Source: Paenibacillus sp. E222 (GTDB taxonomy: Bacteria; Bacillota; Bacilli; Paenibacillales; Paenibacillaceae). Taken from it: a stretch of 64,000 nucleotides of DNA. The stretch covers positions 6,882,001 to 6,946,000 of the forward strand of contig NZ_CP058552.1 of assembly GCF_013401555.1 (NCBI RefSeq), written 5' to 3'. Both the position numbers and the translations under genes were made by a program. The notes under the pieces were generated by a model. That model was given only the letters and a program-made list of their open reading frames with translations, ran no database searches and was not told the origin of the DNA. Positions 6,557 through 24,335 of the stretch are shown here, piece by piece. The first letter of the stretch is position 1. Each line of letters starts with the position of its first letter.

Positions 6557-6634
6557 AGATAACGTTGGTGTATTCCCGACGCCCCACCGACTTAAGCCAC
6601 GTTAGGGGCCAACAGCGTGAATACGTTGTTATAT
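6557..6634 (-). repeat. attC-like site 1
   Basis: Outer boxes AGATAAC (6557-6563) and GTTATAT (6628-6634) and inner boxes TATTCCCG and GCGTGAATA pair across a short variable hairpin. It follows the 3' end of the nucleoside phosphorylase gene when read on the minus strand. This is one of the shortest sites in the array (78 bases). Confidence 0.8.
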
Positions 6635-6725
6635 ATTGTATCCACCTTCATATTTACATTTAACTCTTGGTTGTCTATTAGCATTTCCCTTTTAATAATT
6701 AATCAATGGATTATAGCTATTCCAT

Positions 6726-7508
6726 TTATAAAGCACTGCATATCCGCAATGATATTTGAACAAGGTTTAATCTTATTTCTGATCTGCTATTCCAACTTCG
6801 ACTATCCCATTCAACACCACTTAAATCATCACCGCCATACAAGATAATACCTAATTTCACATTTCTAAATTGTGAAACAGCCATAAATGCTGCTGCTTCC
6901 ATTTCTACAGTTACACACCCTTCTGCTTTCCGCAACTCAACCTTTTCTTTAGTCTCTCTGTAAAATGAATCTGTCGTCCAAGTTTTGGCCTTTATATACC
7001 TTATATTATGTATATTAAAATCGTCCTCTATGATTTTTAATACCTCTAGATTACATTCAATTTCTCTTGATGGCTTAATGTAATGGTATGATACCCCTTC
7101 ATCTCTCACTGCAGAATCTGGTACTATTACATGTCCAACAGCAATGTCTTTTTGTAATACACCTGCACCACCACACACTATAAATTTCTGAAAACCATAG
7201 GCTATCAGTTCTTCTAAGAATCCTGCTGAACCTGCAGCTCCTAAATACCCCAAAGTAATATGTACTTTTTTTCCTTGATAATATGTTTCATATATTGGCA
7301 AATCTACAGTCTCGCAATGTAGACATGCAACTTCTTTCAACTTTCCCTCCGTTTTCATCTTTTCAATTACATCTCTAAAAAATGTTATGACACAGTATTC
7401 AAATTCTTCTTTTGGATTGATAAAATTAGTTGCTTCTATTATTGCAACTCGCGATTCATCAAATTCCAATATCGGGAATTCTTTACTATCAATTTTTTTG
7501 CTCTCCAT
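6726..7508 (-). CDS. Nucleoside phosphorylase (PNP/UDP family)
   Basis: A 260-aa protein of the PNP_UDP_1 superfamily, which cleaves nucleosides with phosphate to base plus pentose 1-phosphate. Visible motifs are the phosphate/ribose-site loop ITLGYLGAAGSAGFLEEL (about 84-101), IVCGGAGVL, the substrate-site segment CVTVEMEAAAFMAV (about 198-211) with its conserved Met-Glu, and GIILYGGDDLSG near the end. The length fits the uridine phosphorylase-like group. It is the coding part of a cassette, with site 1 downstream and truncated site 2 upstream. The C-terminal tail after GVEWDSR looks slightly atypical. Substrate preference is not predictable. Confidence 0.85.
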   Translation of the reverse strand: MESKKIDSKEFPILEFDESRVAIIEATNFINPKEEFEYCVITFFRDVIEKMKTEGKLKEVACLHCETVDLPIYETYYQGKKVHITLGYLGAAGSAGFLEELIAYGFQKFIVCGGAGVLQKDIAVGHVIVPDSAVRDEGVSYHYIKPSREIECNLEVLKIIEDDFNIHNIRYIKAKTWTTDSFYRETKEKVELRKAEGCVTVEMEAAAFMAVSQFRNVKLGIILYGGDDLSGVEWDSRSWNSRSEIRLNLVQISLRICSAL

Positions 7509-7563
7509 CTCAACTTACCTCCAAAGGAATTAAATTTTTTTATTATTTCTTTGCGGCTATTAC

Positions 7564-7592
7564 ATATAACGTTACTGTATTCACGACGTCCC
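7564..7592 (-). repeat. attC-like half-site 2 (truncated)
   Basis: Only one arm is present: ATATAAC, a spacer, then TATTCACGACG. The partner arm (GTGAAT, then GTTA) is absent, and the stop codon of the ferritin-like gene lies only nine bases beyond. The deletion seems to have removed the gene-proximal half of the site. Confidence 0.75.
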
Positions 7593-7600
7593 AACCTCTA

Positions 7601-8317
7601 CTATGAATTAGCTATAATCTTCTTTGTTAAGTTAAACTCATGACGGCATTCATAGTAATAACTTTTGAGTTTATATCCCCCAGCTTTAAATACAGACTTA
7701 TGTTGATACCACACTATAATTAGCGTTCCTTCAAAAAGGATTCTACGAAGGATATAAACTATTCTGTTAAAGAGAGCGCTTCTATTTTGAGCAAATTGTT
7801 GAAGTGTTTCGGATTGAAACTGAACATGTTTCTCTTCATCACTTAAAATCTGATTACATAAATCTATTAATACTTCTGACTTTGTAGATTTTTGCAAGGC
7901 TTTATAGTACAACTTAGCAATGATCTCAGCAGTTAATAGAACAATGACTGATTGCTCTAGACTCGCATATCGACGTAATCTTCTAAATACATTGTCCACC
8001 CAATGTCTACGAAGGAGTGGGATTCCCTGTACCTTCATAAATCTGCCTAGATCTCTAGCGTGCCTCTGTTCTTCTTTAATGAATTCTATAAGTGCTTCAT
8101 AGTAATCCTGATCTTGTGTCTGATGTACATATTCTTGCGCACGTTTAATTAGATATTTACCTTCAGAGTTTTCTCCTAATTGAAACTGTTGAATTGACTT
8201 AATGATTATTTCTCTTTCATTAGTTGTTAATTTATAGTTGTCATCCCAATGAATATATTTGAGATTTTGATTATTTCTTCGATAATATTGCACCCATTTC
8301 GAGAAAGTGATATTCAT
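7601..8317 (-). CDS. Ferritin-like superfamily protein (putative diiron protein)
   Basis: A 238-aa, mostly helical protein. Two ExxH motifs sit in predicted helices: EEQRH (residues 82-86) and EEKH (161-164), with further acidic residues nearby (E60-E62 region, E121, E131). This is the pattern of a ferritin-like four-helix diiron centre. A hydrophobic segment (LFEGTLIIVWYQHK, about 194-207) may associate with the membrane. The reaction is unknown; oxidase, oxygenase or iron-storage roles are all possible. It is a cassette gene whose attC-like site is truncated right behind the stop codon. Confidence 0.7.
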   Translation of the reverse strand: MNITFSKWVQYYRRNNQNLKYIHWDDNYKLTTNEREIIIKSIQQFQLGENSEGKYLIKRAQEYVHQTQDQDYYEALIEFIKEEQRHARDLGRFMKVQGIPLLRRHWVDNVFRRLRRYASLEQSVIVLLTAEIIAKLYYKALQKSTKSEVLIDLCNQILSDEEKHVQFQSETLQQFAQNRSALFNRIVYILRRILFEGTLIIVWYQHKSVFKAGGYKLKSYYYECRHEFNLTKKIIANS

Positions 8318-8349
8318 TATTTGCTCCTAAAATGTAATAGGTTTATGTC

Positions 8350-8536
8350 AGATAATCTTCGTGTGTTCACGACGTCCAACTCCCTTAAGCCCGAATGATG
8401 GCCGCGATGTGGTAGGGAGTTGGAGGTGTCCGGCTGATTCCACTTCCCTGCTGCTGCCAATTACTTCTCCGAATCCTCATCTAACTCCTGCCGGACCAAG
8501 GGCCGAATGACTCGAAGCATGAATATGGTGTTAGGT
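8350..8536 (-). repeat. attC-like site 3
   Basis: Box AGATAAT (8350-8356, deviating from TAAC) pairs with GTTAGGT (8530-8536), a perfect GTTRRRY core, and TGTTCACGACG pairs with CATGAATA. The long variable hairpin carries the CGACGTCC/AAGGGCCG elements shared by sites 11, 14 and 15. It follows the phosphatase gene. Confidence 0.8.
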
Positions 8537-8558
8537 AATATTTTCCAAATTATTCATA

Positions 8559-9272
8559 TCACTTCAAAACCTTTATCTGTTCTGTAATATAGGATCCTTC
8601 TTGGAAAATCAAACAATTTAATTGCATCCCATATGCGCATCCGCCATCGATTCCTATCTTGTCATCACTAAACCAAATATCTGATGTGCCATGGATGTCT
8701 ATTGTTTTTGTATGCCCAAAAATAATTTTTTTGTTTAGATCAAAGCTAGCTCGAATAAATTCATCCTTAATATACATAAAGTCATGTTCAGGCTGGTTCT
8801 TCCAATCAATAAAATTGGGATTCAAACCGGCGTGAACATAAATGTGATCTTTGTCTTCGTGATAAAAAGGTAGTTTACTTATATAGTCAATATGATGATA
8901 ATAATGAGTTTTTATAAATTCTATCGCCTGGTCCAGGATCTCATCAGATATTTCTTCATTATTTATATCACAATAACTTTGGAGCGTTTGTTTCCCTCCG
9001 TGTTCTAGAAACTTTGATCTTACCGTTACGCTATCACTGTTTATCAAATCAACTAATCGTTGGTCATGATTACCTCGTAAGGCAATTGCGTTATGATTCA
9101 TTACTAGTTGGATTACTTTATCAACTACTTCTTTACTGTTAGGCCCTCTATCTACATAATCACCTAGCAAAATCAACTTATCCTTAGTAGAGTTGTATTC
9201 GGTAAGTTGCAATATCTGATCTAACTGATCGATACATCCATGAATATCGCTAATCATAATTGTACGCTTCAT
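8559..9272 (-). CDS. Metallophosphoesterase (serine/threonine phosphatase or Ap4A-hydrolase-like)
   Basis: A 237-aa protein with the complete calcineurin-like metallophosphoesterase signature: SDIHG (residues 8-12), GDYVDRG (about 37-43), GNHDQR (about 67-72), the later VHAGLNP and FGHTKT, and a terminal GIDGGCAYG. These residues bind two metal ions. The size and sequence resemble bacterial PrpE/ApaH-type enzymes that remove phosphate from proteins or cleave diadenosine tetraphosphate. It is a complete cassette gene followed by site 3. Confidence 0.88.
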   Translation of the reverse strand: MKRTIMISDIHGCIDQLDQILQLTEYNSTKDKLILLGDYVDRGPNSKEVVDKVIQLVMNHNAIALRGNHDQRLVDLINSDSVTVRSKFLEHGGKQTLQSYCDINNEEISDEILDQAIEFIKTHYYHHIDYISKLPFYHEDKDHIYVHAGLNPNFIDWKNQPEHDFMYIKDEFIRASFDLNKKIIFGHTKTIDIHGTSDIWFSDDKIGIDGGCAYGMQLNCLIFQEGSYITEQIKVLK

Positions 9273-9315
9273 AGAATCTCCTATTTTATCAATGTTTTTA
9301 GTTCTTGGGATTTTC

Positions 9316-9431
9316 AGTTAACGTTCCTGTATTCATGAACCCCAAAGGAGTTGTCTGCTGAAATGCTTCTCCGAATCCCTTCTCGAAGACCAAGGCTCCA
9401 TCGGAGCCGCTGCCTGAATATTATGTTATAA
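9316..9431 (-). repeat. attC-like site 4
   Basis: Outer boxes AGTTAAC (9316-9322) and GTTATAA (9425-9431); inner boxes TATTCATGAAC and CCTGAATA. It follows the phosphatase-like small gene. The adjacent GATGTCGG after GTTATAA recurs beside several sites (see sites 12 and 17). Confidence 0.85.
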
Positions 9432-9503
9432 GATGTCGGGGGCCCCCTTGAGCTACTTACAAAATGCTCTTTTTTCGTACTCAGTTGCTTTTGTTCTTAA
9501 CTA

Positions 9504-9833
9504 TTATTCTGGTACTTCAACGTATTCCGATAGTCTAGATTTCAATATCTCTATTAATTCTTCATCCATATATTCATAATCATCCGATATATTTAAGCAT
9601 ACCAAACGTTTGTTTATTAGTTTATTTGAGAATTTATCTTTAAGTCTTCTTACATGTTTTTTCTCCATTACAAAAATCATTTCTGCCCATCCAACGTGTC
9701 CTTCAGTGACTCTAATTCTAGCTCCCTCTTCTGTTCCAGCAGATCGCACTTGATATCCATTGTATCCATCAAAAATCTTCTCTGCTGTTAAGCTGCGCCA
9801 TTTGTTTCGACTACAAATAAATAGTAATTTAAT
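9504..9833 (-). CDS. Low-molecular-weight protein-tyrosine-phosphatase-like protein, probable ATT start
   Basis: The frame is open well upstream of the GTG at 9749. The extension supplies the missing catalytic loop: LLFICSRNKWRSLTAEKIF contains CX5RS, the phosphatase signature. The later AGTEEGARIRVTEGHVGWAE and IFVMEKKHVRRLKDKF fit the LMW-phosphatase-like family of about 109 aa. The only start matching a ribosome site is ATT at 9833, six bases after AGGTGA, with an in-frame TGA just before it. So either ATT is the start codon or a former ATG has mutated. It should dephosphorylate protein tyrosine or arginine if expressed. Confidence 0.72.
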   Translation of the reverse strand: MKLLFICSRNKWRSLTAEKIFDGYNGYQVRSAGTEEGARIRVTEGHVGWAEMIFVMEKKHVRRLKDKFSNKLINKRLVCLNISDDYEYMDEELIEILKSRLSEYVEVPE

Positions 9834-9906: not shown

Positions 9907-10067
9907 TTATAACGTTTTGTATTGACGATGTCCTGGCCCCTTAGAGTCGCTGCTTATAGTTGTGAGGCTTGCCGAACACTTAATGCAGTGACGTCCCGAC
10001 GGGCTTAGGGGCTGAATCTGGTCATTCGCTTCTCAGAGTGACCCGGATCGTCAATATTTTGTTAGTC
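9907..10067 (-). repeat. attC-like site 5
   Basis: Outer boxes TTATAAC (9907-9913) and GTTAGTC (10061-10067). Inner boxes TATTGACGATG and ATCGTCAATA are perfectly complementary but changed from TTCACG to TTGACG in both arms, a compensatory change that supports selection for pairing. The stop codon of the nucleotidyltransferase gene lies inside the outer box. Confidence 0.85.
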
Positions 10068-10829
10068 GAAGGAAGTTCTGGAAGCAGCCATTGCATTTAA
10101 AGCGTTCTCCAAATAGCTATTTACTTCATCTGCAATTCCCAGAAACTCTTCAACAAGTACATTACTATCCAAGTAACAAGCATACAGATAATCAACTAAA
10201 GCAGAGTCAATCTCACAATAGTTTAATATGGCATTCTTCATCTTAATCATGTCATCTTGCCATACCCCTGTATCTTCTAAAACCAAAGAGTATAATGCAC
10301 GAATTAATCTCTTCGAATACCCTTTAATATACCTAGTTTTCATTGTGTTATCACTAGCATTAGAAAGTAAACGATGTATACGATTTACTTCCTCCTTGGT
10401 CTCTGTATTTAAGTCTAAAATGAACTCTGGAGAAATAATGATCGGTGGTACTTTTTCACCAATGTCATGACCATATAGGCAAACACAAATGATCTTAACC
10501 CAAAAACCCCACTCATTCGGTTTACTTAATACATCGTCAATCGAGCAAATTATCGTATCAATCTTAGTTACTACTGGATATTCTTTCAAAAGCCTGTCTT
10601 TAATATTTGACAATCTTTCGTAATCAATATCTTTGGGATTTACACATACAATAGTAAAGTCTGCATCTGACTTAAAAGGTTTAGCCGTTCCTTTTGGAAT
10701 CGAGCCACACATATAAATGCTATGAATCTTACCTTTAAATTCGGCAAGTATATGATCTATATACTTATCAACTAAATCCTTATATTCACTTTGTATTACA
10801 ATTCTATTTATAACTTTTTCTAATATCAT
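10062..10829 (-). CDS. Nucleotidyltransferase-fold protein (aminoglycoside adenylyltransferase-like)
   Basis: A 255-aa protein with the polymerase-beta-type nucleotidyltransferase core near the N-terminus: CGSIPKGTAKPFKSDADFTI (about 41-60), which has the G-S active-site turn and the DxD metal ligands, then a third acidic residue in VTKIDTIICSID. The C-terminal half is helical, as in aminoglycoside nucleotidyltransferases. It could transfer a nucleotide to an antibiotic, protein or RNA; the substrate is unknown. The last codons run into attC-like site 5, so the protein end (SRTSFD) is encoded by the recombination site. Confidence 0.75.
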   Translation of the reverse strand: MILEKVINRIVIQSEYKDLVDKYIDHILAEFKGKIHSIYMCGSIPKGTAKPFKSDADFTIVCVNPKDIDYERLSNIKDRLLKEYPVVTKIDTIICSIDDVLSKPNEWGFWVKIICVCLYGHDIGEKVPPIIISPEFILDLNTETKEEVNRIHRLLSNASDNTMKTRYIKGYSKRLIRALYSLVLEDTGVWQDDMIKMKNAILNYCEIDSALVDYLYACYLDSNVLVEEFLGIADEVNSYLENALNAMAASRTSFD

Positions 10830-10860: not shown

Positions 10861-10982
10861 GGCTAACGTTTCTGTATTCACGATGCCTGACGCATGTCAG
10901 GTGTGTCCGGCTTTCTCCGCTTCCCTGAAATGCTTCTGCTGGACCGAGGGCGTATGCCCGATGCGTGAATATATTGTTATCT
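10861..10982 (-). repeat. attC-like site 6
   Basis: Outer boxes GGCTAAC (10861-10867) and GTTATCT (10976-10982); inner boxes TATTCACGATG and GCGTGAATA. The variable part contains nested palindromes such as CTGACGCATGTCAG and GGGCGTATGCCC. It follows the SnoaL-like gene. Confidence 0.88.
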
Positions 10983-11021: not shown

Positions 11022-11405
11022 TCAACTATGATCTTCAATCAGTATTAACTTCTTATCTTTCATTTGAAATATTGATTTCCCTTGAAGTTTTAATGTTTCT
11101 CCTGCTTTCATTCCATTAGGGAGATCACTGGACAATACTCCCTCATAATCAATGTCAACCTCTGCTTTATCTCCTGCAAAAGTAATGTTCTTTATTACTT
11201 GACGCCTTTGAGAAAATACCTGAATTGACTGCTCTGCTAATGTGCGAAATTCCTGAATCCCCTTTGTTTCCGAATTCACTTCACCTTTAGAAAAGTTTCG
11301 AAAATGAATATTTTCATTTAAAACTCCTATCATTCCATCAATGTTAAACGTGTTATATGCGCTCAGGTATTTTTCAATAAGATCTTTTAAATTTGAGTTC
11401 TCCAA
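11022..11405 (-). CDS. SnoaL/NTF2-like protein
   Basis: A 127-aa protein of the NTF2-like fold. The N-terminal helix pair (LKDLIEKYLSAYNTFNIDGM) is followed by a short acidic strand and curved beta-sheet segments (IHFRNFSKGEVNSETKGIQEF, then VIKNITFAGDKAEVDIDYEG). SnoaL-like proteins of this size act as small-molecule isomerases, hydrolases or binding proteins; no catalytic residues can be assigned here. It is a complete cassette gene followed by site 6. Confidence 0.75.
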   Translation of the reverse strand: MENSNLKDLIEKYLSAYNTFNIDGMIGVLNENIHFRNFSKGEVNSETKGIQEFRTLAEQSIQVFSQRRQVIKNITFAGDKAEVDIDYEGVLSSDLPNGMKAGETLKLQGKSIFQMKDKKLILIEDHS

Positions 11406-11453: not shown

Positions 11454-11558
11454 AGATAACGTTTCTGTATTCACGAATCCGAGAGGCTCAAAGGAACGTA
11501 GCGACTGGGTCCGTCAGGACCTAGCCTCTCAGTGGTTGTCGCCTGAGTCCGCTTCCGT
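11454..11558 (-). repeat. attC-like half-site 7 (truncated)
   Basis: The arm AGATAAC, then TATTCACGAATCC, and a variable hairpin (GAGAGGCT/AGCCTCTC) are present. The gene-proximal arm with GTGAAT and GTTA is missing. The TTGTCGCCTGA element near the break also occurs in site 15. The acetyltransferase frame reads through this remnant to a stop at 11529. Confidence 0.75.
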
Positions 11559-12084
11559 TCTACTGAATTTCGCTAAAACCTCATCAATGTTATCCCATTC
11601 ATAAATTAATTCATTTAGAACTTTTCCTCCGATTATTATTTGAATTGATTTACATAATTTAGCTCCATAATGTTCATAGAAATATCGTGTCTTATTATCT
11701 TCTAGAACTTCAACAAATATCTTTTGATAGCCTAAAAATTTAAATTGTAGAAACAGTTGTTTAAGTAATTCTTTCCCTAAACCTCTTCCATGATATTCCT
11801 TAAGTATGTATATAGATGTTAAATCACTAGAATTGGCTACTATATTTGTTTCTCTCTTCCAAGAATCTGCAAATCCAATAATTTCTCCTTCTGGGTTTTC
11901 TGCTATAACTACAAAATTATCTTCTCTTTCAATATTTTTAATCCATAATTCAGTTCTTTTTTTTATATGATAGATTATATAAGAATTCATCTGGAATAAT
12001 ACCTTTGTAAGTTGTTCTCCAACTATCCACATAAACTTTTGCAATGCCTTCTGCATCATTAATCGTTGCTTTTCTTATTTGCAT
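11529..12084 (-). pseudogene. GNAT acetyltransferase, frameshifted in an A8 tract and ending in an attC remnant
   Basis: ATG 12084, behind GAGGTGG, begins a good GNAT start (IRKATINDAEGIAKVYVDSW). The frame then ends at an eight-A run (11957-11964). Removing one A joins it to RTELWIKNIEREDNF and the acetyl-CoA-binding core (SIYILKEYHGRGLGKELLKQ, with the Q/RxxGxG loop) and FYEHYGAKL. The last residues, TEADSGDNH, are encoded by the truncated attC-like site. It is a pseudogene unless the A8 tract is a sequencing error or is corrected by slippage. Without the shift, a 176-aa product from 12059 has an aberrant N-terminus. Confidence 0.75.
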
Positions 12085-12197: not shown

Positions 12198-12343
12198 TCA
12201 TAACTTTCTTGTATTCACGAAACGCCCCGGCCTTAGATAGCTCTTATCTTAGGCTGGGGCGTTTGTTGACTGAGATTTCTTCCATGATTATACATCTTTC
12301 AATCAAGGGACGATAGCCCTACAGCTTGAATACTGTGTTAAAC
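12198..12343 (-). repeat. attC-like site 8
   Basis: Outer boxes TCATAAC (12198-12204) and GTTAAAC (12337-12343), the latter a perfect GTTRRRY core; inner boxes TATTCACGAA and GCTTGAATA. The apical part is a long near-perfect hairpin (AACGCCCC...GGGGCGTTT). No intact minus-strand gene precedes it; its original gene may be the truncated RES gene, now separated by an inserted block. Confidence 0.82.
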
Positions 12344-14247: not shown

Positions 14248-14643
14248 TTAACACTCTACTACCTTTAATGTTTCTAATGCAGTACATTCAGCTATTGTGA
14301 CACTTGCATTTAGCCATGGTTGGACTTCTGCAATGACAGTTTCCTTAGCTTCTGCTACATAGAGATAAGAAATACCTTTTGGATTTACCCTACCATAAGA
14401 AGCTTTTCCGTCAGGCGGAGCTCCTAAATCCTTATCCTCATTAAACGGACTCAATCCATTAACCCTTGCTCTATAAAATTTTTGACCATTCATCACTTCA
14501 TATGTTTTTGTTACAAGACTGGAAAGATAATCTTTGATAAAATCATGATCCTGATCGATCAAAAACCTATTATTTTTGAATAGTTCCGTAAATTGAGAAT
14601 ACTTGTTCAGAGCATCATCATTATTGGATATATATATTTCCAT
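14248..14643 (-). CDS. RES-domain protein, truncated
   Basis: A 131-aa frame with the front part of a RES domain: FYRARVNGL (about 57-65), GAPPDGKASYGRVNPKGISY, then LYVAEAKETVIAEVQPWL. RES toxins degrade NAD+ (family knowledge). The frame stops shortly after the LKVVEC stretch, about 40 bases before the IS30 end, whereas full proteins continue by about 100 residues, so the catalytic fold is incomplete. It is probably a cassette gene broken by the block inserted at 12.35-14.2 kb. It has a good ribosome site (AAAAGGAGAAATG). Confidence 0.75.
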   Translation of the reverse strand: MEIYISNNDDALNKYSQFTELFKNNRFLIDQDHDFIKDYLSSLVTKTYEVMNGQKFYRARVNGLSPFNEDKDLGAPPDGKASYGRVNPKGISYLYVAEAKETVIAEVQPWLNASVTIAECTALETLKVVEC

Positions 14644-14686: not shown

Positions 14687-14782
14687 CGATAACGTTCCTG
14701 TATTCACGACCCGACGCACGTCGAGTGTTCGGCGGATGCCGAATCCAGGGCGTATGCCCGCAGCGTGAATATTATGTTATAC
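14687..14782 (-). repeat. attC-like site 9
   Basis: Outer boxes CGATAAC (14687-14693) and GTTATAC (14776-14782); inner boxes TATTCACGACC and GCGTGAATA. The compact variable part with GGCGTATGCC is nearly identical to sites 10, 12, 13 and 16. Read in array order it belongs to the cassette with the two plus-strand genes to its right. Confidence 0.9.
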
Positions 14783-14880: not shown

Positions 14881-15141
14881 ATGAAATGGTCTGAGGCTAG
14901 AGTTCAGTTTCCTAATCGTTGGGTTCTTGTTGAAGCAATTTCAGCCTACTCAGCTAATAACATGCGTAATATTGAAGAATTCTCTGTCATTAATGATTAT
15001 GAAGATACTAAGCTTGCTTGGGATGCTTACAAAAAACATCATTCTTCTGAACCTTCACGTGAGTACTATATCTTTCATACTGCCAATGAGAACATCGAAG
15101 TTCAAGAACAAGAATTCATTGGAATTAGAGGTCTTCGATGA
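14881..15141 (+). CDS. Conserved small protein paired with an aspartic-protease-like gene
   Basis: An 86-aa soluble protein (starts MKWSEARVQFPNRWVLVEAI, later REYYIFHTANENIEVQEQEF). I recognise it as the usual upstream partner of retropepsin-like genes in Firmicutes, but it has no assigned function. It has a perfect AAAGGAGG ribosome site, and its stop codon overlaps the ATG of the next gene (ATGA), so the two are translationally coupled. It runs opposite to the cassette orientation set by the flanking sites. Confidence 0.7.
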   Translation: MKWSEARVQFPNRWVLVEAISAYSANNMRNIEEFSVINDYEDTKLAWDAYKKHHSSEPSREYYIFHTANENIEVQEQEFIGIRGLR

Positions 15142-15524
15142 GAATAAGATTAGTTAATGGCCTTCCTATTATTGAAGTTTTATTCACTTATCAAAATCAA
15201 TCTGTCTTGCTTCCCAATGTATTATTGGATACAGGATGTGCAACTACCATCTTTGATATTGATTTAATCGAGCCTACTGGCCTAACCATTGATCCTATAC
15301 AAGGTCGTGCCGTTCGAATGTATGGAATTGGAGGTCAAAGTGAACTTTCATTTCAACAGCCCGTTCACTCGTTGACCTTAAACCACCATACATTAAATGA
15401 TTTCGTCATTCAGCTTGGACAAACAAAAGAACCTTATGGTTTCGATGAAATCTTAGGTGTGGATTTTTTATCGACATTGCAATTGAATATCGATTTTAAA
15501 GATATGGTAGTTAGAAAACCCTAA
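15138..15524 (+). CDS. Retropepsin-like aspartic protease fold protein
   Basis: A 128-aa protein with the active-site motif LLDTGCATTIFD (about 29-40; hDTG), a flap-like region with YGIGGQSELSF and the second family motif ILGVDFLSTL (about 108-117). Such single-domain proteins must dimerise to form a protease (family knowledge). It is the second gene of the reversed two-gene cassette. Its target is unknown; the tight pairing with the 86-aa protein suggests that partner is substrate, inhibitor or adaptor (inference). Confidence 0.8.
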   Translation: MRIRLVNGLPIIEVLFTYQNQSVLLPNVLLDTGCATTIFDIDLIEPTGLTIDPIQGRAVRMYGIGGQSELSFQQPVHSLTLNHHTLNDFVIQLGQTKEPYGFDEILGVDFLSTLQLNIDFKDMVVRKP

Positions 15525-15549: not shown

Positions 15550-15645
15550 GTATAACATTCCTGTATTCACGACCCGACGCATGTCGGGTGTCCGGCTTAT
15601 GCCGGACCAAGGGCGTATACCCGCAGCGTGAATAATATGTTAGAT
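15550..15645 (-). repeat. attC-like site 10
   Basis: Outer boxes GTATAAC (15550-15556) and GTTAGAT (15639-15645; GTTRRRY core); inner boxes TATTCACGACC and GCGTGAATA. It is almost the same sequence as site 9 and follows the LigT-like gene. Confidence 0.9.
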
Positions 15646-15681: not shown

Positions 15682-16227
15682 TTATATAAGTGCCTTACTA
15701 ATTACAGTTTCAATCACTCTTTTATTATTCTGGTATATAATTTTGATCAATGATATTTCTTGTACTTCAGTTTGCATACTCTCTAATCTTTTTGTAGTGA
15801 AATGTAATGCTTCTAAAAGTTTTTGATCATCTAAGTGGTTGGCAATCGTACAATGGGGTATCCATCTTTCAGGGTGATACATCAGATTGGAAAAAGCATT
15901 ATATTTCTTGAAGTGGTTATGATAATTAGAGTGAAAGTTTATAAGTTCCTCGGTCGGATTTGGGGATAAGAATAAGGCTCCGCTGTTCATAAAGGTTCCT
16001 AATGTGTTGTAGCTAAGACGAATTTTTGGAGCCGAATTATAGTAACCATCAAACAATTCGCTATACTCCGATTCCTTTAGATCTGAATAATCTGCTAGTG
16101 TTAGATGAGGCTTTCTATTCTCAATCTCATAAGCATAGTTAGATATACCGCTATCGCTTAATTCCTTCCAAAGCGTTTTTATGATTCGTTCTGTTTCTAA
16201 ATCAAAATGAAGGACTACTCCATACAA
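15682..16227 (-). CDS. 2'-5' RNA ligase/LigT-like 2H phosphoesterase
   Basis: A 181-aa protein with the two HxT motifs of the 2H phosphoesterase superfamily, HLTLAD (about 41-46) and HCTIAN (about 123-128), spaced as in LigT-like proteins. Such enzymes open cyclic 2',3'-phosphates or 2'-5' linkages in RNA or small nucleotides, so RNA repair or breakdown of a cyclic-nucleotide signal are possible roles. It is a complete cassette gene followed by site 10. Confidence 0.82.
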   Translation of the reverse strand: MYGVVLHFDLETERIIKTLWKELSDSGISNYAYEIENRKPHLTLADYSDLKESEYSELFDGYYNSAPKIRLSYNTLGTFMNSGALFLSPNPTEELINFHSNYHNHFKKYNAFSNLMYHPERWIPHCTIANHLDDQKLLEALHFTTKRLESMQTEVQEISLIKIIYQNNKRVIETVISKALI

Positions 16228-16298: not shown

Positions 16299-16464
16299 GT
16301 TTAACGTTCCCGCATTCACGACGTCCCACCGACTTAAGCCCCGCCAGTGACGGCCGCGATGCGGTTAGTCGGTCGGATGATGTGTCCGCTGATCTCGCTT
16401 CCCTGCAGTTTGCTTCTCGCGGACCGAGGGCCGTCAGGCCCGAAGCGTGGATATAATGTTATAC
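16299..16464 (-). repeat. attC-like site 11
   Basis: Outer boxes GTTTAAC (16299-16305) and GTTATAC (16458-16464). On the coding strand the first reads GTTAAAC, a perfect GTTRRRY core. Inner boxes are CATTCACGACG and GCGTGGATA. It has a long variable hairpin related to sites 3, 14 and 15. Confidence 0.88.
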
Positions 16465-16496: not shown

Positions 16497-16961
16497 TTAG
16501 CTCTTTTTGTATATCTTCTCTAGTGTTTTATAATCTTCATTAAGAAAAGTCATTTTTGGAACTTTGTCTAACCATTTAACTCCTGTTTCTAAGAATTCAT
16601 TCCGATTAATCAGATCTTTAGGGTTATTTAGATCAATCCCAATCCGGTTCCATCTAACTTGATCAAGAGTAGTTTCAACTTCAGCTACAATTAAACTGCA
16701 TGATAGATCACAGTCATCTGGGCACATTAAGATTGGTACTATCTTAACTTCGTCTGTTGCGTTAAATGTGTTCTCAACTATGTTGGACTCCTCATCAACA
16801 CTCATCCAGTCAACTATCGTTGGAATTAACCCCAAAAACAAATCATCAGGATATAATTCATTCAAAATATGATCCAAAGGCTTTCCATCAACATAAATGA
16901 TTGGATGAGCTTCTTTTACATATTTACTTTTCATGTTCTCGACTAAAATCTTATTTATCAC
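16497..16961 (-). CDS. Uncharacterised cassette protein
   Basis: A 154-aa acidic soluble protein. The N-terminal part contains IIYVDGKPLDHILNELYPD, the middle has a PDDCDLSCS cluster followed by a strand-rich LIVAEVETTLDQVRWNRIGI, and the C-terminus ends in a lysine-rich helix. I do not recognise the family; the style recalls small immunity-type proteins, but no motif supports that. It lies between sites 11 and 12 as a single-gene cassette. Confidence 0.6.
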   Translation of the reverse strand: MINKILVENMKSKYVKEAHPIIYVDGKPLDHILNELYPDDLFLGLIPTIVDWMSVDEESNIVENTFNATDEVKIVPILMCPDDCDLSCSLIVAEVETTLDQVRWNRIGIDLNNPKDLINRNEFLETGVKWLDKVPKMTFLNEDYKTLEKIYKKS

Positions 16962-17009: not shown

Positions 17010-17105
17010 GTATAACGATCCCGTATTCACGACCCGACGTATGTCGGGTGTCTGGCGAATGCCGTACCAAGGACGAATGTCTGCAGCGTGAATATTATGT
17101 TATAG
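17010..17105 (-). repeat. attC-like site 12
   Basis: Outer boxes GTATAAC (17010-17016) and GTTATAG (17099-17105); inner boxes TATTCACGACC and GCGTGAATA. It is of the compact type, with GATGTCGG after the outer box as at site 4, and follows the Mrr-like gene. Confidence 0.9.
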
Positions 17106-17136: not shown

Positions 17137-18035
17137 TCAGTTGATGCCCTTTATGCTTTTTTTAATCTCTTCATCAGTAATCAATTTATTAATACTTCCG
17201 TCTTGATTTCTAATTAATAATTTATGCTTTCCATAAGGATTAACTTCAATTGTTTCATCAGTCTTTAAAAATGGAACACAATATGATAATCCTAACAATT
17301 CAATCAAATGACCAGAAATCTCAAGAAATTGCCCTTTCAAGTAAAAAGAACCTTGTGCCATATCCTCAAAGCCTTTATGTATATTAGTGGATGCTAATTC
17401 ACTTAACGAAGTAATAACATTTCTATTCTCATCATAAAAATTTTCTATAAGAACTTGAACTTTACCTTCTACTAATTTTCCTTCTTTTATCAATTGATCA
17501 ATCTTCTCTTTTCCATTCTCCGAAAAAATTGGTGTATAGACAATCTCATTATCTTTGGGCGTAAAGATACTTATAGTTATAAGAATCTTCGTTATTCTTC
17601 CTTCTTCATCTAACTCTGTTGACGGCCTTAAATTATACAATTGTATATCCTTCCCAAACATCTTCGAACTTGCTTCTGCATATTCCATAGCTGGCTTTGT
17701 ATAATCCGTTGCAGAAAAGAATGCTCCACCTGTTACTTCATTTAGGTCCACTAAAGCTCCACTTAACTTTTGAATATCTCCTCTACCCACTTTTGCTCCC
17801 TTTACAGTATAATCCTTTGCCTCGCTCATTCTTTTTTTGGATTTATCTTCTAGCATCACATCTATTTGATATAATGTGTTACTAAACTCTCCTCTAAGTT
17901 TTTCATCATGCGTTACCTTGCTCTCTTTGTATAGCAATTTCATAACAGCGGCTGAAATTTTCTCATATGCTTCTCCACTTTTTTAGGCTTGAATCCAAAA
18001 AGTTCTTCAAATAAAACATCAATTTTTGAAATCAT
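17137..18035 (-). pseudogene. Mrr-like restriction endonuclease fold protein, frameshifted
   Basis: ATG 18035, behind a GGAGGGAAG site, starts MISKIDVLFEELFGFKPKK. The frame is lost at an A6 run (17979-17984). Adding one base joins it to GEAYEKISAAVMKLLY and the nuclease core. In the downstream frame (from ATG 17943, 268 aa) the PD-(D/E)xK elements are D28 in YQIDVML, E41-x-K43 in SEAKD and Q58 in GDIQKL, followed by GGAFFSATDYT. The core resembles Mrr-type DNA nucleases. Translation from 17943 could still give most of the domain, but without the first helix. Confidence 0.7.
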
Positions 18036-18101: not shown

Positions 18102-18196
18102 CTATAACGTTTCTGTATTCACGACTCAGAGTAGCTGAGTGTCTGGCGAATGCCGGACCCAGGGCGTATGCCCGCAGCGTGAATATTATGTTATGT
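18102..18196 (-). repeat. attC-like site 13
   Basis: Outer boxes CTATAAC (18102-18108) and GTTATGT (18190-18196); inner boxes TATTCACGACT and GCGTGAATA; compact type with GGGCGTATGCCC. It follows the single-span membrane protein gene. Confidence 0.9.
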
Positions 18197-18254: not shown

Positions 18255-18881
18255 TTACAACCCTAACTCATTCTTCATTTGTTCAAGTATATTCTGTCTT
18301 AATATATCAGCATCAATATATATACTATCTACTAAGTCCTGTATATTGATTGTTGCTTCTTTTTTGTTCAATCTTGCAAGATATGTATCAATATGTTCTT
18401 GAGGTCTTTTGTTAATTATGTTGTTTAGATAATCCAGTATTGCTTTATCTGTCTTATCTCCGAATGTAGCTTCTGCAATAAAAAAAGAACCGATTGATTT
18501 AGGTTTATTTTTATCATACTCAACTAAGCCTTCATATTCATATGGCAAATACTCTTCCAACTCATCTTCTATTCTTCTTTTTTCTTCCATAGAAGCAAAT
18601 TGTTTTCCTTTTGTTCTTGAATGAAGTTCAAGATTAAATTTTAGTTTTGCACTTAGCAAAGTATGATGCATAGCAAGGTCATCTGTAAGTCTTGAAAATA
18701 TCCCAAACTTCTTATCCCATTTTTCTTGTTCTTTAGTTTTATCAAACTGCCAGTTCCATAATGAAAAGGATAAAATTGTAGTAATTAGACTTGTTGTCAG
18801 GGCTGTTAGTATAGTGTTTCTCAATAGAACCTTCCAATTTTCACTTACTTTTTTCCCAGGGTTGTTATTTTTTCTTGACAT
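18255..18881 (-). CDS. Single-span membrane protein of unknown function
   Basis: A 208-aa protein. A basic N-terminus is followed by one membrane span (about 22-42, TILTALTTSLITTILSFSLW). The rest is a charged, helical cytoplasmic domain with a likely coiled coil (EEKRRIEDELEEYLPYEYEG). No family is recognised. The layout, a short anchor plus a helical domain, resembles accessory proteins of defence or stress islands but gives no specific function. Complete cassette gene followed by site 13. Confidence 0.6.
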   Translation of the reverse strand: MSRKNNNPGKKVSENWKVLLRNTILTALTTSLITTILSFSLWNWQFDKTKEQEKWDKKFGIFSRLTDDLAMHHTLLSAKLKFNLELHSRTKGKQFASMEEKRRIEDELEEYLPYEYEGLVEYDKNKPKSIGSFFIAEATFGDKTDKAILDYLNNIINKRPQEHIDTYLARLNKKEATINIQDLVDSIYIDADILRQNILEQMKNELGL

Positions 18882-18972: not shown

Positions 18973-19132
18973 ACATAACGTTCACGTGTTCACGACGTCC
19001 CACCGACTTAAGGCCACAACGTGGCCGGGCGCGATGCGCTAAGTCGATGCGGATGTGTCTGGCTGCTCTCTTCTCCGAATTCCCTCTGCCAGATCGAGGG
19101 CGAATGCCCGATTCGTTAACACCGTGTTATGT
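18973..19132 (-). repeat. attC-like site 14
   Basis: Outer boxes ACATAAC (18973-18979) and GTTATGT (19126-19132), perfectly complementary over seven bases. Inner boxes are TGTTCACGACG and the degenerate TCGTTAACA. Long type. It follows the FRG gene. Confidence 0.85.
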
Positions 19133-19163: not shown

Positions 19164-20033
19164 TTAAGATCGATAATTTATATCAAATTCACCATATAAT
19201 GATTTTGTAAAGCCATCAATTCCTGGATAAATAGTTTCACTAGATATATTCATTAACTTTAATTCTCTTCTAATTTCATTATGAAAATCTTTTGGAATAT
19301 TCACTTTAAGCAATGCACATTCCTGATTCAATAACTCTATTAAATCTTCATCATGATTATCAATTATCTTACTTATTGGTAATTCCTTTCTAAATCTATT
19401 TACAGTTAAGGACAGATTGTATTCAAATGCTTGATGTCCTTCAAATGGAATAGCGAATAGACCTTGCTGACTGGAGAGTCGCTCATGTATATTAAAGGGC
19501 TCAATTAACATTACAAGTGGGCTTGAAGTTTGTTCAATTAATTTTTCATTACAATATTTTCTTGTCCCAAAATACTTCTCATCCTCTAAACCTCTCCATT
19601 TTTCTGTTTCAAGACCCTTCGCATTGATTAACTTTTTATTTAGGCAGAAGACAGTAGATTCTTGCAATGCCTGATCAATTGAAAAAAACAAAGCCACAAA
19701 GTATGAATAGGAAAAGTCTAATAATCTCGTTGGTCCTCCATGATGTTGTATTAAAGATAACCACTCTAAAACATTCTCTACTTCTGGAGGCTTTTCCAAG
19801 TAATGAAAAGCTCTACGTTGAAATTTTTCAATAATTTTTCTTTCAATCATTGGAATATCTCTAATATTAGAGTTATTGATTTTAGCTCCTCTTTCTAATG
19901 TAGTTTGTAATGACCATTGACTATTTGATTGTCCCCTAAATACCCACTTTTCAATGCTTCTAAATAACTTTCTGCAGTCTTCCCATGAATTAATCGTATA
20001 CTCACAGAAAATATTGTCACTGTGCTTACTCAT
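19164..20033 (-). CDS. FRG-domain protein
   Basis: Start chosen at ATG 20033 behind AAGAGGTG; a longer in-frame start would lie in the neighbouring attC-like site. The 289-aa product has the FRG signature FRGQSNSQWSLQTTLERGA (about 32-50) and the second motif QHHGGPTRLLDFS (about 96-108). FRG proteins are common in phage-defence and mobile regions; the biochemical activity is unsettled. There is no membrane span. It is the only gene of its cassette. Confidence 0.85.
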   Translation of the reverse strand: MSKHSDNIFCEYTINSWEDCRKLFRSIEKWVFRGQSNSQWSLQTTLERGAKINNSNIRDIPMIERKIIEKFQRRAFHYLEKPPEVENVLEWLSLIQHHGGPTRLLDFSYSYFVALFFSIDQALQESTVFCLNKKLINAKGLETEKWRGLEDEKYFGTRKYCNEKLIEQTSSPLVMLIEPFNIHERLSSQQGLFAIPFEGHQAFEYNLSLTVNRFRKELPISKIIDNHDEDLIELLNQECALLKVNIPKDFHNEIRRELKLMNISSETIYPGIDGFTKSLYGEFDINYRS

Positions 20034-20109
20034 AAAAACACCTCTTAAGTTATTTTTTTTTGTTAGAATCAGATTATATATAATTGTAAATTGCTTTTGC
20101 ATAGGTTTC

Positions 20110-20266
20110 ACATAACGTTGTGTATTCACGAACCCTCACTGGCTTAAGCGCGTAAGCGCGGGTCGACGGACTTAGCCAGTGCAGGGTTGTCGCCTGATTC
20201 AGCTCCCCCGAAATCCCTCCCTAGCGACCGAGGGCGAATGCCCGATGCGTGAATATGTTGTTATGA
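20110..20266 (-). repeat. attC-like site 15
   Basis: Outer boxes ACATAAC (20110-20116) and GTTATGA (20260-20266); inner boxes TATTCACGAAC and GCGTGAATA. Long type, with internal stems CACTGGCTTAAG/CTTAGCCAGTG and AAGCGCG/CGCGGG. It follows the amber-interrupted Nudix gene. Confidence 0.88.
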
Positions 20267-20813: not shown

Positions 20814-20909
20814 TCATAACGTCCCTGTATTCACGACCCAGCGTGTGCTGGGTGTCCGGCGAATGCCGGATCAAGGACGTAGGTCCGCAGCATGAATATT
20901 ATGTTATAT
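20814..20909 (-). repeat. attC-like site 16
   Basis: Outer boxes TCATAAC (20814-20820) and GTTATAT (20903-20909); inner boxes TATTCACGACC and GCATGAATA. Compact type. It follows the DUF5919 gene of the two-gene cassette. Confidence 0.9.
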
Positions 20910-21039: not shown

Positions 21040-21831
21040 TTAATCTTGTTTTGATAGCGAATAATCTTCCGAAATAGACCATATATCTTCAAAATGCTTA
21101 TTGTATATTTCAAAAATCCCTTTATCAATCTCCTTTAAATTCATTAAGGGAGCAGCAGCTCCTCTCAATCCATAAAGATGAGGAGTCACTAACATTTCTG
21201 AATCGAATTTATAAATTGAATTGTAGAGTGGTGCATCATGTAGTCTAATTTCTATAAATCCTTGTTCTAGTAAAGGACTTAATCTGGCCAACGTTGTTTT
21301 AATTCGGTCAGAAATAGATCCTTCGTTCTTCTCTTCTTCGTTTCTTGCTTTTATGTAGTAGCCATCAGGCTTACCTAATAAAATTCTTATACGACATCCT
21401 TCTTTGTTTTTAGTTTCAATCAGCTCATTGAACTCATAATGCTCTGGAAGGAAATGAACAGCATATCCTAAAATATCTATAGTCGACTTAGATTCTTTAA
21501 TTTTCTTTATCCATATCTCGTTATCTATTGACATCCTTCTGCTCCATATCCCTATCAAACCTACTTTGGATGTTTGATTTAAGAGTTCCACCGACTCTTT
21601 CAAACTCAAATCCAACTTTTGCAAACTCGAAACTATAGGAAGAATAGGACTACCTACGAAATGATTCAACAAAAAATATATGATAGCCGAGGCAAGTATA
21701 GATGTTCCAATACTAGTGAAAATACCATTGATAGTGTTTCCTAAGAATTGGCCACTTACAATAGCAATAACCCCTAAAAGTAAAACAACAATATATACGA
21801 GCAATTCATTTTTATTTTTTTCCAATTCCAA
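21040..21831 (-). CDS. Two-span membrane protein with DUF5919 domain
   Basis: About 263 aa. Two membrane spans lie at about 10-31 and 36-57. The cytoplasmic domain begins DILGYAVHFLPE and contains IRILLGKPDG, RLHDAPLYNSIYKFDSEML (about 206-224) and a C-terminal FEIYNKHFEDIWS. This is the DUF5919 layout, a domain usually found at the C-terminus of regulators and thought to be phospholipase-D-like. No HxK catalytic pair was found here. The start may be the TTG two codons further in. It begins three bases after the Nudix gene, so the pair forms a two-gene cassette. Confidence 0.72.
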   Translation of the reverse strand: MELEKNKNELLVYIVVLLLGVIAIVSGQFLGNTINGIFTSIGTSILASAIIYFLLNHFVGSPILPIVSSLQKLDLSLKESVELLNQTSKVGLIGIWSRRMSIDNEIWIKKIKESKSTIDILGYAVHFLPEHYEFNELIETKNKEGCRIRILLGKPDGYYIKARNEEEKNEGSISDRIKTTLARLSPLLEQGFIEIRLHDAPLYNSIYKFDSEMLVTPHLYGLRGAAAPLMNLKEIDKGIFEIYNKHFEDIWSISEDYSLSKQD

Positions 21832-21834
21832 TCC

Positions 21835-22305
21835 CTACCTAATCATTGATTTTGAAGAGTTCGAGAAGAAATCCTCTAACCTAATTTTTTGTGCTGGATG
21901 CATATTCACTTTAAACACTTCTTCTTTTTCAAAAAATCTAACTTCGTAAGACTCATTGCTAACACTAATTTCACCTGATTCTAAAATGCAATGAAAACAA
22001 ATTGAAAATTGTTGTCTGATCTCTCCATTTGAATACTCGATTATATGATTGGGATCTGAATATATGCCAATAAGTTTTTCTACTCGAACTTCTAAACCAG
22101 ACTCCTCTTTCACTTCTCTTATCACAGTTCTCTCAATATTTTCTCCATACTCCATTGCTCCTCCAAGTAGAGACCAAGAATTATTGTCTCTTCTTCTATG
22201 AAGTAATATTTGATTTTCACTATTAGTCACAATGGCCGAAGCTGCTGCAATAATAGAATTTGGCTTAGGAGCGTTATTGTCATAATAATAATCTTTTCTA
22301 CTCAA
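21835..22305 (-). CDS. Nudix hydrolase (first gene of a two-gene cassette)
   Basis: A 156-aa protein starting at TTG 22305 behind AAAGGGTG. The Nudix box GGAMEYGENIERTVIREVKE followed by ESGL is complete (GX5EX7REUXEEXGU with Glu-Ser). The flanking strands (IVTNSENQILLHRRR before, FSICFHCILESGEI after) fit a sanitising or nucleotide-sugar hydrolase. It ends three bases before the DUF5919 membrane protein, suggesting a joint function such as making or removing a nucleotide signal (inference). Confidence 0.85.
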   Translation of the reverse strand: MSRKDYYYDNNAPKPNSIIAAASAIVTNSENQILLHRRRDNNSWSLLGGAMEYGENIERTVIREVKEESGLEVRVEKLIGIYSDPNHIIEYSNGEIRQQFSICFHCILESGEISVSNESYEVRFFEKEEVFKVNMHPAQKIRLEDFFSNSSKSMIR

Positions 22306-22393
22306 AAATTAGCACCCTTTCTAGTTAGCTATCTAGCTAAATTTATTTTAACACGGCTATTGTGTTAACTTGTACATATTTCTCAGGAATTGC

Positions 22394-22536
22394 ATATAAC
22401 GTTCAAAGGTTCACGACGGGCTTCATCCTTATATAGCTCTTATCTTAGGATGAAGTCTGTGTTGGTGATTTACTTCTATTGTATTGACATCTTCCAACCA
22501 AGGACGATTGTCCACTGCGTGAAACTTGTGTTATAG
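22394..22536 (-). repeat. attC-like site 17 (nearest the recombinase)
   Basis: Outer boxes ATATAAC (22394-22400) and GTTATAG (22530-22536); inner boxes GGTTCACGACG and GCGTGAAAC. The hairpin contains TTATATAGCTCTTATCTTA, shared with site 8. GATGTCAG follows the outer box. Confidence 0.85.
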
Positions 22537-22590
22537 GATGTCAGCGCCTTCTTCGATTCACATGCAAAAGGTCTTTTATTCCTTGTTAAC

Positions 22591-23040
22591 TTATAGAGTA
22601 ATTTCTTTAAGAATCTTATCCTTACTCATCTTAACTTGTTCAATCATATGCCCAATATTACCCTCACCTGCAAACAATGACATATCGAAAAAATCCTTAT
22701 TTAAATCGGACCAGTATAATTCATTTTCATCCCCGTAGACGTCTACATGATAATTTAACTCGCCAAAATAAACTTCCACGTAACATTCTTGAATATAGTA
22801 TTTGAAGTCCATTAAATGATGTAGAATAATATCTTTATTAGATATGCCAGTCTCTTCAAATAATTCTCTATATGCCGCCATAATGCCGGATTCTCCGTGT
22901 TCAATTTTACCGCCAACAAGATTACTTAAACCCTTATATGGATTCCTTGATCGCTTGCACATAAGTAATTTATCCATATCTTTGCTGTAAATCATGAGCA
23001 CATTATACCCTTGCACTATTGATCCCCCTTTTAGAGACAT
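22591..23040 (-). CDS. Nudix hydrolase (first cassette of the array)
   Basis: A 149-aa protein with the full Nudix box GGKIEHGESGIMAAYRELFE followed by ETGI, preceded by LLMCKRSRNPYKGLSNLVG, typical of 8-oxo-dGTP diphosphatase-like (MutT/YtkD-style) members. It is the cassette next to the recombinase gene, the position of the most recently acquired cassette in ordinary integrons. Good ribosome site (AAAGGGGG) before ATG 23040. Confidence 0.85.
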   Translation of the reverse strand: MSLKGGSIVQGYNVLMIYSKDMDKLLMCKRSRNPYKGLSNLVGGKIEHGESGIMAAYRELFEETGISNKDIILHHLMDFKYYIQECYVEVYFGELNYHVDVYGDENELYWSDLNKDFFDMSLFAGEGNIGHMIEQVKMSKDKILKEITL

Positions 23041-23216
23041 TTAATATTGTCTGCTAGTTGATTTTTAACATATTGCGCTGATTTCCTATAACATCTAATT
23101 TATGTACTTCGTAAATACCACACACCCTGCATGATATGTGAACTACGTATATGATAACCTATGGTGCAGTATTTGCGAAGAAAAATTTGGTGAAAAAGGT
23201 AGATTTATAGCAACAC
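23041..23216 (-). other. Candidate attI-like region between recombinase and first cassette
   Basis: The recombinase gene's stop codon is followed, in cassette direction, by an inverted repeat (CTTCGCAAATAC and GTATTTACGAAG, 23180-23169 and 23118-23107) around about 50 bases. Then comes a single recombination-core-like box GTTATAG (23092-23086), of the same type as the cassette joints, and the first cassette. A lone core box with no full attC palindrome, at the recombinase-proximal end, is what an attI site looks like. No direct proof. Confidence 0.5.
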
Positions 23217-24335
23217 TCAATCTCCCAGATCCAAACGATCCAGCGGGCTCTGAATACGCTGAATATTCTTCGTACTAACATGCGTATATCGCTGTGTTGT
23301 TCGTGCACTCGTGTGACCAAGCAGCTCTTGGATATAGCGCAGGTCTGTTCCGTTTTCCAGTAAATGCGTGGCGAAAGAGTGTCTTAAGACATGAATACTA
23401 ACCTTCTTCACAATGCCTGCACGTTGTCTGGCTTCTTCAAGAACCTTCTGCACACTCCGCTCCGTAAGATGCCGATCAGAAGATTGCCCTGGAAAGAGCC
23501 ATCGAGTTGGTCTATATTCAGTGACGTATTTCTGCACCATACCCCACGCTAGACTCGATAGGATCGTTCTCCGATCCTTTTGCCCCTCCCCCTGTCTCAA
23601 GATGAGTGTTTGCCTTTCAATATCAAGATCGCTGCACCGCAAACGCACAACTTCACTTACACGAAGTCCAGAAGAATAGGTTAGAAACAATATGGCCTTA
23701 TGTTTAGGATTGGTTACGGATTTGAGCAATTGAGCGACTTCCTTTTCCGACAATACTTGTGGAAGCTTGGTCTGCTTTTTGGGACGAATATACTGGATAT
23801 CCGTAGGGTGATGAAGTACATGTTTACAATAGAAACGTAGCGCGCTAATTGTCTGATTCACGCTTAAATGGGATATCCCTCGCTCAAGCAAGTCTAGACA
23901 ATACGTCTGTAAATTAGATGTCGTGACATCCGTTTTTTCAAAAGGAGTATGTTTCAGAAAACGTTCGACCTGATTACAATACGCTTTAATTGTTTTGCGG
24001 CTGTATCCTCGTAACTTTAGTGCCTTCTGCAATGGTTCTTTGCTCCATGAGTTATTGTTTCCTCTACTCGCTTTCCAGCGCTGTAGATCTTCGCTCTCAA
24101 TCCATAACTCCGGGGTAATATGAACGTCATTTGGATCGAACTAGCTTATGAACTCCTGTACAGCATCAATAGTGTAAGGGATGATCCACACTTTCAGTTG
24201 GGGCTCCCAACGTCTGGCCGTAATCTGGCGAATGCACTGAATATATGCGAGGTTGTATGGGATGCGAATGTGCAGTGAATCAGTGGAACCTACTGTTATA
24301 GTTATCGTTTCCTTGGTTGTAGCCTTATTAGTCAT
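23217..24335 (-). pseudogene. Tyrosine recombinase (array integrase candidate) interrupted by an amber codon
   Basis: One frame of 373 codons runs from ATG 24335 (RBS AAAGGAG) to 23217, with an in-frame TAG at codon 65 (24143-24141). Before it, the N-terminal module reads HIRIPYNLAYIQCIRQITAR, then WEPQLKVWIIPY. After it come a SAM-like core-binding domain and a complete catalytic domain: Arg in SSGLRVSEV, Lys in GQKDRR, HVLRHSFATHLL, LLGHTSARTT and Tyr in RYTHV, ending SPLDRL as in many IntI-like enzymes. The IntI-specific insertion before the HxxR motif is absent. The gene points the same way as the cassettes. A 271-aa product from ATG 24032 would retain both core domains, so activity is possible. 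Confidence 0.8.

Follow-up and report, generated by a model that had tools for sequence, protein, structure and literature searches.

The window analysed here, a 64-kb stretch of DNA (G000:C1:6882001-6946000), comes from Paenibacillus sp. E222, a soil-type bacterium with a 7.5-Mb genome. It holds an array of gene cassettes separated by palindromic sites that resemble the attC sites of integrons, next to a gene for an integrase of the tyrosine recombinase family. A covariance model built from 13 window sites (R1), searched against the window at E≤1, returned 15 sites, all on the minus strand and spanning 6559-22534. From the integrase outwards they occupy 22396..22534 (site 1, 104.8 bits), 20816..20907 (site 2, 86.5 bits), 20112..20264 (site 3, 101.2 bits), 18975..19130 (site 4, 96.1 bits), 18104..18194 (site 5, 88 bits), 17012..17103 (site 6, 90.2 bits), 16301..16462 (site 7, 102.8 bits), 15552..15643 (site 8, 92 bits), 14689..14780 (site 9, 91.3 bits), 12200..12341 (site 10, 92.9 bits), 10863..10980 (site 11, 107 bits), 9909..10065 (site 12, diverged, 32.2 bits), 9318..9429 (site 13, 76.2 bits), 8352..8534 (site 14, 83.2 bits) and 6559..6632 (site 15, short, 33.2 bits). 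Thirteen of the 15 matches are training rows of R1, so the count is partly by construction; sites 12 and 15 lie outside the training set. Two half-sites on the same strand, at 11456..11530 and 7566..7592 (far ends approximate), keep the 3' half, CGTGAATA-spacer-GTTA, and have lost the other. The model and box inspection together bear out the 15 complete palindromic sites and two half-sites counted in a first-pass annotation of the sequence. The motif TTCACG occurs 58 times in the window, with 31.9 expected, and an Rfam search of the window gave no match.

Along the minus strand, a short site runs TATAAC-ATAA-TATTCACG-CTGC-hairpin(s)-CGTGAATA-CAGGAAC-GTTATA, in which outer boxes, (T)TCNNNTAAC and GTTANNNGA(A), enclose inner boxes, TATTCACG and CGTGAATA, with variable hairpins within. 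This is the R''-L''-L'-R' order that the annotation had proposed, and the inner stem covaries within the site across 191 sites of the genus (35 sources); of these, 185 have a 5' spacer of 4 nucleotides (nt) and 175 a 3' spacer of 7 nt. The set derives from 314 model matches, which gave 124 rows (A3) and a best 150 (A4), in all 213 distinct sites; two window sites raised it to 215, of which 24 were removed for want of a clear TAAC and GTTA. Exact RYYYAAC/GTTRRRY cores, which had been noted at several sites, hold for a minority and not as a general rule, with GTTRRRY present in 45 of the 191 sites, RYYYAAC in 48 and both in six. The likeness to attC therefore stands for box order and covarying inner stem, but not for the consensus, which is not that of canonical attC. 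When 147 distinct sites were aligned to the covariance model, which leans towards its own structure, 93.2% of cells paired and double-change cells numbered 263, compared with 75 after shuffling and 16-31 with the partner slid.

The proposed insertion point and cassette unit

An attI-like site (23082..23150, minus strand) lies between the integrase and the first cassette, with a fixed junction GTTA at 23089-23092, and the ends of the first cassette at this junction pair. Keeping one of any loci identical over 250 bases left 35 distinct integrase loci, 29 of which align on ...TACGAAGTACATAAATTAGAT|GTTA, or nearly, 3' of the integrase stop. Majority identity among these 29 is 0.90 over the 40 bases before the junction and 1.00 in GTTA, falls to 0.48 at +1 to +3, rises to 0.93 at +4 to +7, where the outer box has its conserved GAAA, and is 0.48 at +8 to +55. 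Past NNNG none of the 406 pairs of loci is similar (E≤1e-3, 150 bases), so that 29 loci carry 29 different first cassettes. In a second attI lineage (L037, L078-L080) the core is related and ends in ...GTAAATAAGACGTTA or ...GTAAATAATACGTTA.

If the mobile circle consists of a gene and the site that follows it, the bases after GTTA should start the next cassette. For this reason the three variable bases adjoining TAAC were compared with the bases after the previous site's GTTA, and Watson-Crick pairing reached 0.87, 0.86 and 0.84 over 142 cassette pairs; shuffled same-cassette pairing was 0.50, 0.32 and 0.35, and none of 1000 shuffles reached the observed values. Within one integrated site pairing stayed at chance (0.50, 0.33 and 0.34, shuffled 0.49, 0.32 and 0.33; 191 sites). 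A second set, from Saccharibacillus, Cohnella, other Paenibacillus and a plasmid, behaved alike: all three bases pair in 38 of 47 cassettes and in three of 58 sites. It was drawn from 49 of the 76 matches in one scan and all 18 plasmid matches, nine of these 67 lacking a clear core; left out were six matches from L135, whose contig has the same length as that of a genome already used, two opposite-strand ones from L104, one each from L106, L108, L109, L110, L111 and L141, and 13 from outside Paenibacillaceae. Of the 15 window cassettes open to this test, 11 pair at all three positions. Pairing within a cassette combined with chance pairing within a site means that full outer pairing is restored only in a circular cassette of gene plus site, and a circular intermediate is thereby implied by the sequence comparison. 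The same model predicts that the outermost pair of the fold, whose partner base belongs to the next cassette, should often fail in integrated sites, and it does in 69 of the 147.

Shared cassettes point the same way. Among 172 delimited cassettes, 49 have a copy elsewhere over at least 60% of their length. Comparison of 76 non-redundant pairs places the end of homology no more than 25 bp from the junction at the left end in 53 pairs, at the right end in 57 and at both ends in 42. One cassette of 592 or 593 bp, which in the window carries the gene at 11022-11405, occurs in eight loci at 93-99% identity (in L058 over 510 bases only). Its window copy is 93% identical to that of L079, in a genome whose integrase is 54-66% and whose array-flanking radical-SAM protein is 85% identical to those of the window. 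Cassettes appear from these boundaries to move as gene plus site with exact ends. The variation in cassette content that had been anticipated between Paenibacillus genomes is thus found, both in the 29 first cassettes and in the shared cassettes bounded by junctions.

One competing explanation treats the sites as dispersed hairpin repeats of the REP type, lying between genes and capturing none of them. The repeats are indeed palindromic and intergenic; however, in the host genome the model finds at least 41 matches at E≤0.01 (a lower bound, as scores were computed for 150 of 800 candidates), which share one strand and fall into two clusters, at least 15 at 5,911,483-5,937,923 and at least 26 at 6,842,511-6,904,534. 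Same-cassette pairing and the attI breakpoint already contradict this explanation, junction-precise sharing adds to them, and we give it next to no weight. The first-pass annotation had itself tied such repeats to an identical gene order among strains with no gain or loss at the sites, an order that the breakpoint and the shared cassettes contradict.

The cassette-array recombinase

The integrase gene (23217..24032, minus strand) reads towards the array and encodes a 271-residue tyrosine recombinase core, XerA/IntI-like and without the additional domain of IntI. A split-off N-terminal domain, weakly HARP-like, is encoded at 24141..24398 on the same strand, with an in-frame stop between it and the core. 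The additional domain (about 41 residues, around patch III) is absent from the cassette integrases: the box-I Arg and HxxR stand 92 residues apart in 30 of the 35 Paenibacillaceae rows (range over all 35, 88-94) and in 39 of 46 other rows, and 132-134 residues apart in seven IntI rows. Profiles place the window protein nearest to XerA-like recombinases, with XerC/XerD close behind; it scores 219.4 with NF040815 (XerA), just under the cut-off of 220 that two full-length relatives pass with 224.5 and 222.5 bits.

Recent transfer of a canonical IntI integron into Paenibacillus would agree with the best sequence match in the PDB, IntI4 (137.7 bits), and with the IntI-like SPLDRL at the C-terminus. 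It accords poorly with a TIGR02249 score of 200.7 against a cut-off of 265, which was passed in none of the 11 genomes scanned, with the roughly 41 residues fewer than in the seven IntI references, and with sites in nearly every genome of the genus (74 of 75). In the tree, the IntI rows form one group (100/98) apart from the cassette-integrase group, although the latter (72 rows) has a support of 86/89, under the program's bar, and IntI is represented by five rows only. Such a transfer is very improbable.

Relatives of the window integrase are about 100 residues longer at the N-terminus than its core. Compared with the HARP family PF07443, 16 of 27 members of this N-terminal domain match at E≤1 (best 1.1e-4), every listed score being below the 25-bit cut-off; the window piece reaches E 0.011, likewise below it. 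The best PDB match of the N-terminal profile is the HARP domain of SMARCAL1 (4o66, E 0.001), and of five other full-length proteins scanned, four (L121, L129, L145 and L157) gave no HARP match at E≤0.5. Forked DNA is the substrate that HARP domains bind. The recombinase was rightly called unusual at first sight, as it lacks the IntI domain, stays below the TIGR02249 cut-off and carries an N-terminal domain with a weak match to HARP.

This protein chemistry also bears on how the sites are read. The cassettes could be real and the recombinase nevertheless use double-stranded core sites, with the hairpins doing other work, such as transcription termination. Xer proteins act on double-stranded DNA, and XerA-like profiles rank first for the window integrase. 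Moreover, the IntI domain that contacts the extrahelical bases of folded attC through its I2 helix and β-4,5 strands, as described in a passage on the canonical enzyme (PMC3053210), is absent here. Yet a terminator needs neither an outer box that pairs between the two ends of the circle, nor an inner box that covaries within its site, nor spacers that hardly vary from 4 and 7 nt, and all three are seen here. We regard double-stranded recognition as unlikely, though the least improbable of the three alternatives.

We favour an integron-like system that is chromosomal, sedentary and non-canonical, to which we assign a probability of about 0.9; the attI breakpoint, the pairing and the recurrence of cassettes all support the sedentary cassette system of a new type suggested at the outset. 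In the proposed mechanism, a XerA/IntI-related tyrosine recombinase would insert circular gene cassettes, each a gene with the palindromic site that comes after it, at a fixed attI next to the recombinase gene. Crossover would take place inside the GTTA core or immediately upstream of it, so that what follows GTTA is already part of the next cassette; only in the free circle would TTCNNNTAAC and GTTANNNGAA come together again as the full outer box. The cassette-array recombinase would be the enzyme that catalyses this exchange. The site may be recognised as folded single-stranded DNA, and the HARP-like N-terminal domain may act in this recognition, by analogy as a natural substitute for the strands and helix with which IntI touches extrahelical bases. 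A broader claim seems to us an even bet: that this is a second major integron class, whose folded single-stranded cassette sites are read by a HARP-like fork-binding domain in place of the IntI additional domain, common in Paenibacillaceae, present in Clostridia and perhaps in Chloroflexota, Nitrospirota and archaea.

Several observations weigh against the integron-like interpretation. Recombination and the circular form are deduced from the comparison of genomes. Full three-position pairing is missing from four of the 15 window cassettes open to the test, and the shuffles treat related cassettes as independent and so count some more than once, but the same-cassette and same-site comparisons draw on one set of sequences. 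Homology runs more than 25 bp further upstream in 22 and downstream in 11 of the 76 pairs, as would be expected where neighbouring cassettes are also shared. Six of the 35 integrase loci fall off the main attI, four of them sharing the second, related core. Finally, the window integrase is damaged and the other close copies in the same genome are fragments; intact copies are present in relatives. A Glu stands at a position held by Lys in 29 of 29 aligned relatives, which we take to be the catalytic lysine. A search for the motif around it finds K in 34 of 37 Paenibacillaceae rows, the exceptions being the window (Glu), one unmatched row and L153, a false match near the start. Because of this Glu and the in-frame stop after the N-terminal domain, the window integrase is probably inactive and the window array, in consequence, probably frozen.

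Decayed integrase copies also lie at G000:C1:6849007-6849820 and 6873719-6873847 inside the same 62-kb array, and one decayed copy (L066) is followed by its own attI core, an arrangement of integrons in tandem. LexA-like boxes were found upstream of the integrase neither in the window nor in the Paenibacillaceae loci; they occur in four of 80 relatives listed (L120, L136, L145, L164), all Clostridia, with about 0.75 expected from background.

With chromosomal or sedentary integrons the system shares an integrase gene with an adjacent fixed attI, mostly co-oriented cassettes each ending in an R''-L''-L'-R' palindromic site, degraded copies of the integrase and one cluster that has no close integrase. 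It differs in that the integrase lacks the additional domain and its gene points towards the array, that the sites rarely fit RYYYAAC/GTTRRRY, and that they have a longer outer box (TTCNNNTAAC/GTTANNNGAA), spacers of 4 and 7 nt and several inner hairpins. It appears to work like an integron and is not a canonical member by the strict features, the IntI domain and the attC cores. Simple XerA/XerC-like recombinases (NF040815) share the core fold and the profile score, whereas the N-terminus of the cassette-integrase clade is longer by about 100 residues. The task of Xer proteins is to resolve chromosome dimers at dif; to our knowledge they have no cassette array. Tyrosine integrases beside IS91-family transposases also lack the IntI domain (plasmid relatives, 36-39% identical) but form a separate group in the tree.

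Distribution in the genus and beyond

At E≤1e-4 the model finds sites in 74 of the 75 genus genomes, and in the family 176 of 245 genomes and 17 of 19 genera have them; in a sample of the class they occur in 17 of 151 genomes, nine of the 17 being members of the genus or family. Integrase matches at E≤1e-40 occur in 53 of the 75 genus genomes and a full-length frame (at least 370 codons, no stops) in 22 by hand count, so that sites outlast intact integrases. In 29 of the 75, also counted by hand, an integrase or fragment lies within 1.5 kb of the radical-SAM gene, which marks a fixed chromosomal place for the lineage; in others it is found 20-60 kb from that gene, on another contig or elsewhere.

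These numbers contrast with the literature. Integrons are called extremely rare in the host phylum in a portion of the IntegronFinder 2.0 paper, whose large RefSeq survey reports one complete Firmicutes integron, in Limnochorda pilosa, and a few integrase-less clusters (PMC9024848). A 2008 survey, in its passage on the phylum, gives no integrons in Firmicutes (PMC2426708), and a review includes Firmicutes in a list of integron phyla (PMC8618304). The additional domain is treated as defining in a section of one paper (PMC9668308); an excerpt of another describes the IntI insertion as not fully conserved in an integron-like group, yet essential for function (PMC8138268). The present system casts doubt on whether this insertion is needed for cassette recombination. 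A literature search for a Paenibacillus, Clostridia or domain-less integron, in which subscription papers were thinly covered, retrieved no description of such a system among the records listed.

At least 80 integrase relatives with 46-94% identity come from Paenibacillaceae, Clostridia, Dehalococcoidia, Nitrospirae and archaeal and other metagenome-assembled genomes (MAGs). A structural scan of the loci of 80 listed relatives detected 133 sites on the 3' side of the integrases (260,353 bases), of which 42 come from outside Paenibacillaceae. The 5' side (433,186 bases) had one and shuffles had 0.8; these two served as controls, the reverse complement being uninformative for a symmetric pattern. 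Outside Paenibacillaceae the triplets match within the same cassette in 15 of 21 cases and within the same site in six of 42 (hand sum, listed loci), and weaker arrays adjoin related integrases in Clostridia. The scan gave no sites in several long loci, such as L116, L129, L136 and L164; in L121 and L164 repeated halves are visible by eye. MAG contigs are possibly misbinned and 17 of the 80 contigs stop 120-310 bases past the integrase, so the archaeal cases are leads only. Among the matches listed, relatives in phage records reach 35-37% identity at best and viral contigs hold one at 24%; exact patterns for one form of the site half and one of the attI core each gave none in viral contigs.

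Arrays also occur elsewhere. The second host array (G000:C1:5911483-5937923; L068, L069), with at least 15 matches, lies about 1 Mb away without a close integrase match, and two arrays stand about 0.87-0.98 Mb apart in eight other genomes (G001, G002, G015, G021, G035, G038, G041, G049). A 174-kb plasmid of Cohnella herbarum (NZ_CP051681.1, L204) carries an array of 18 model matches and no close integrase (best 31%), with two RelE/ParE-type toxin genes annotated among the cassettes. In a Saccharibacillus array (L104:8490-8915) two sites have the opposite orientation.

Genes of the cassettes

Most genes run one way, as the first-pass annotation had observed in the window: in 155 of the 172 delimited cassettes the gene is co-oriented with the integrase, in 14 it is opposite and three lack an open reading frame (ORF) of 60 amino acids. 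In the window, minus-strand cassette genes nearest to the integrase encode two NUDIX proteins (22591..23040 and 21835..22305), a DUF5919 protein (21040..21831), an FRG-domain protein (19164..20129), a protein with no family found (18255..18881), an Mrr_cat-domain protein (17137..17943), a protein with no Pfam family found (16497..16961) and a member of the 2'-5' RNA ligase superfamily (15682..16227). A single cassette then holds two ORFs in opposite orientation to the others (14881..15524, plus strand). Further along the minus strand follow genes for a RES-like protein (14248..14643, just under the Pfam cut-off), a GNAT acetyltransferase (11529..12059), the SnoaL-like protein of the 593-bp cassette found in eight loci (11022..11405), a nucleotidyltransferase-domain protein (10062..10829), a metallophosphoesterase (8559..9272), a ferritin-like protein (7601..8317, just under the Pfam cut-off) and a PNP/UDP phosphorylase (6726..7508).

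Two of these match PADLOC models for candidate defence systems, the second ORF of the two-ORF cassette (15138-15524) PDC-M08B and the FRG-domain gene PDC-S15. With such genes and a plasmid-borne array, a Gram-positive cassette pool is opened to study. The 2,489-bp cassette at 12200-14689, in which the RES-like gene is accompanied by an oppositely oriented CAP-domain gene, is probably composite; its ends pair at none of the three positions. Beyond the last site lies a glyoxalase-like gene (6231..6527, minus strand), and a direct repeat of 82 bases, 84% identical between its copies at 5892-5973 and 24484-24565, brackets array and integrase together.

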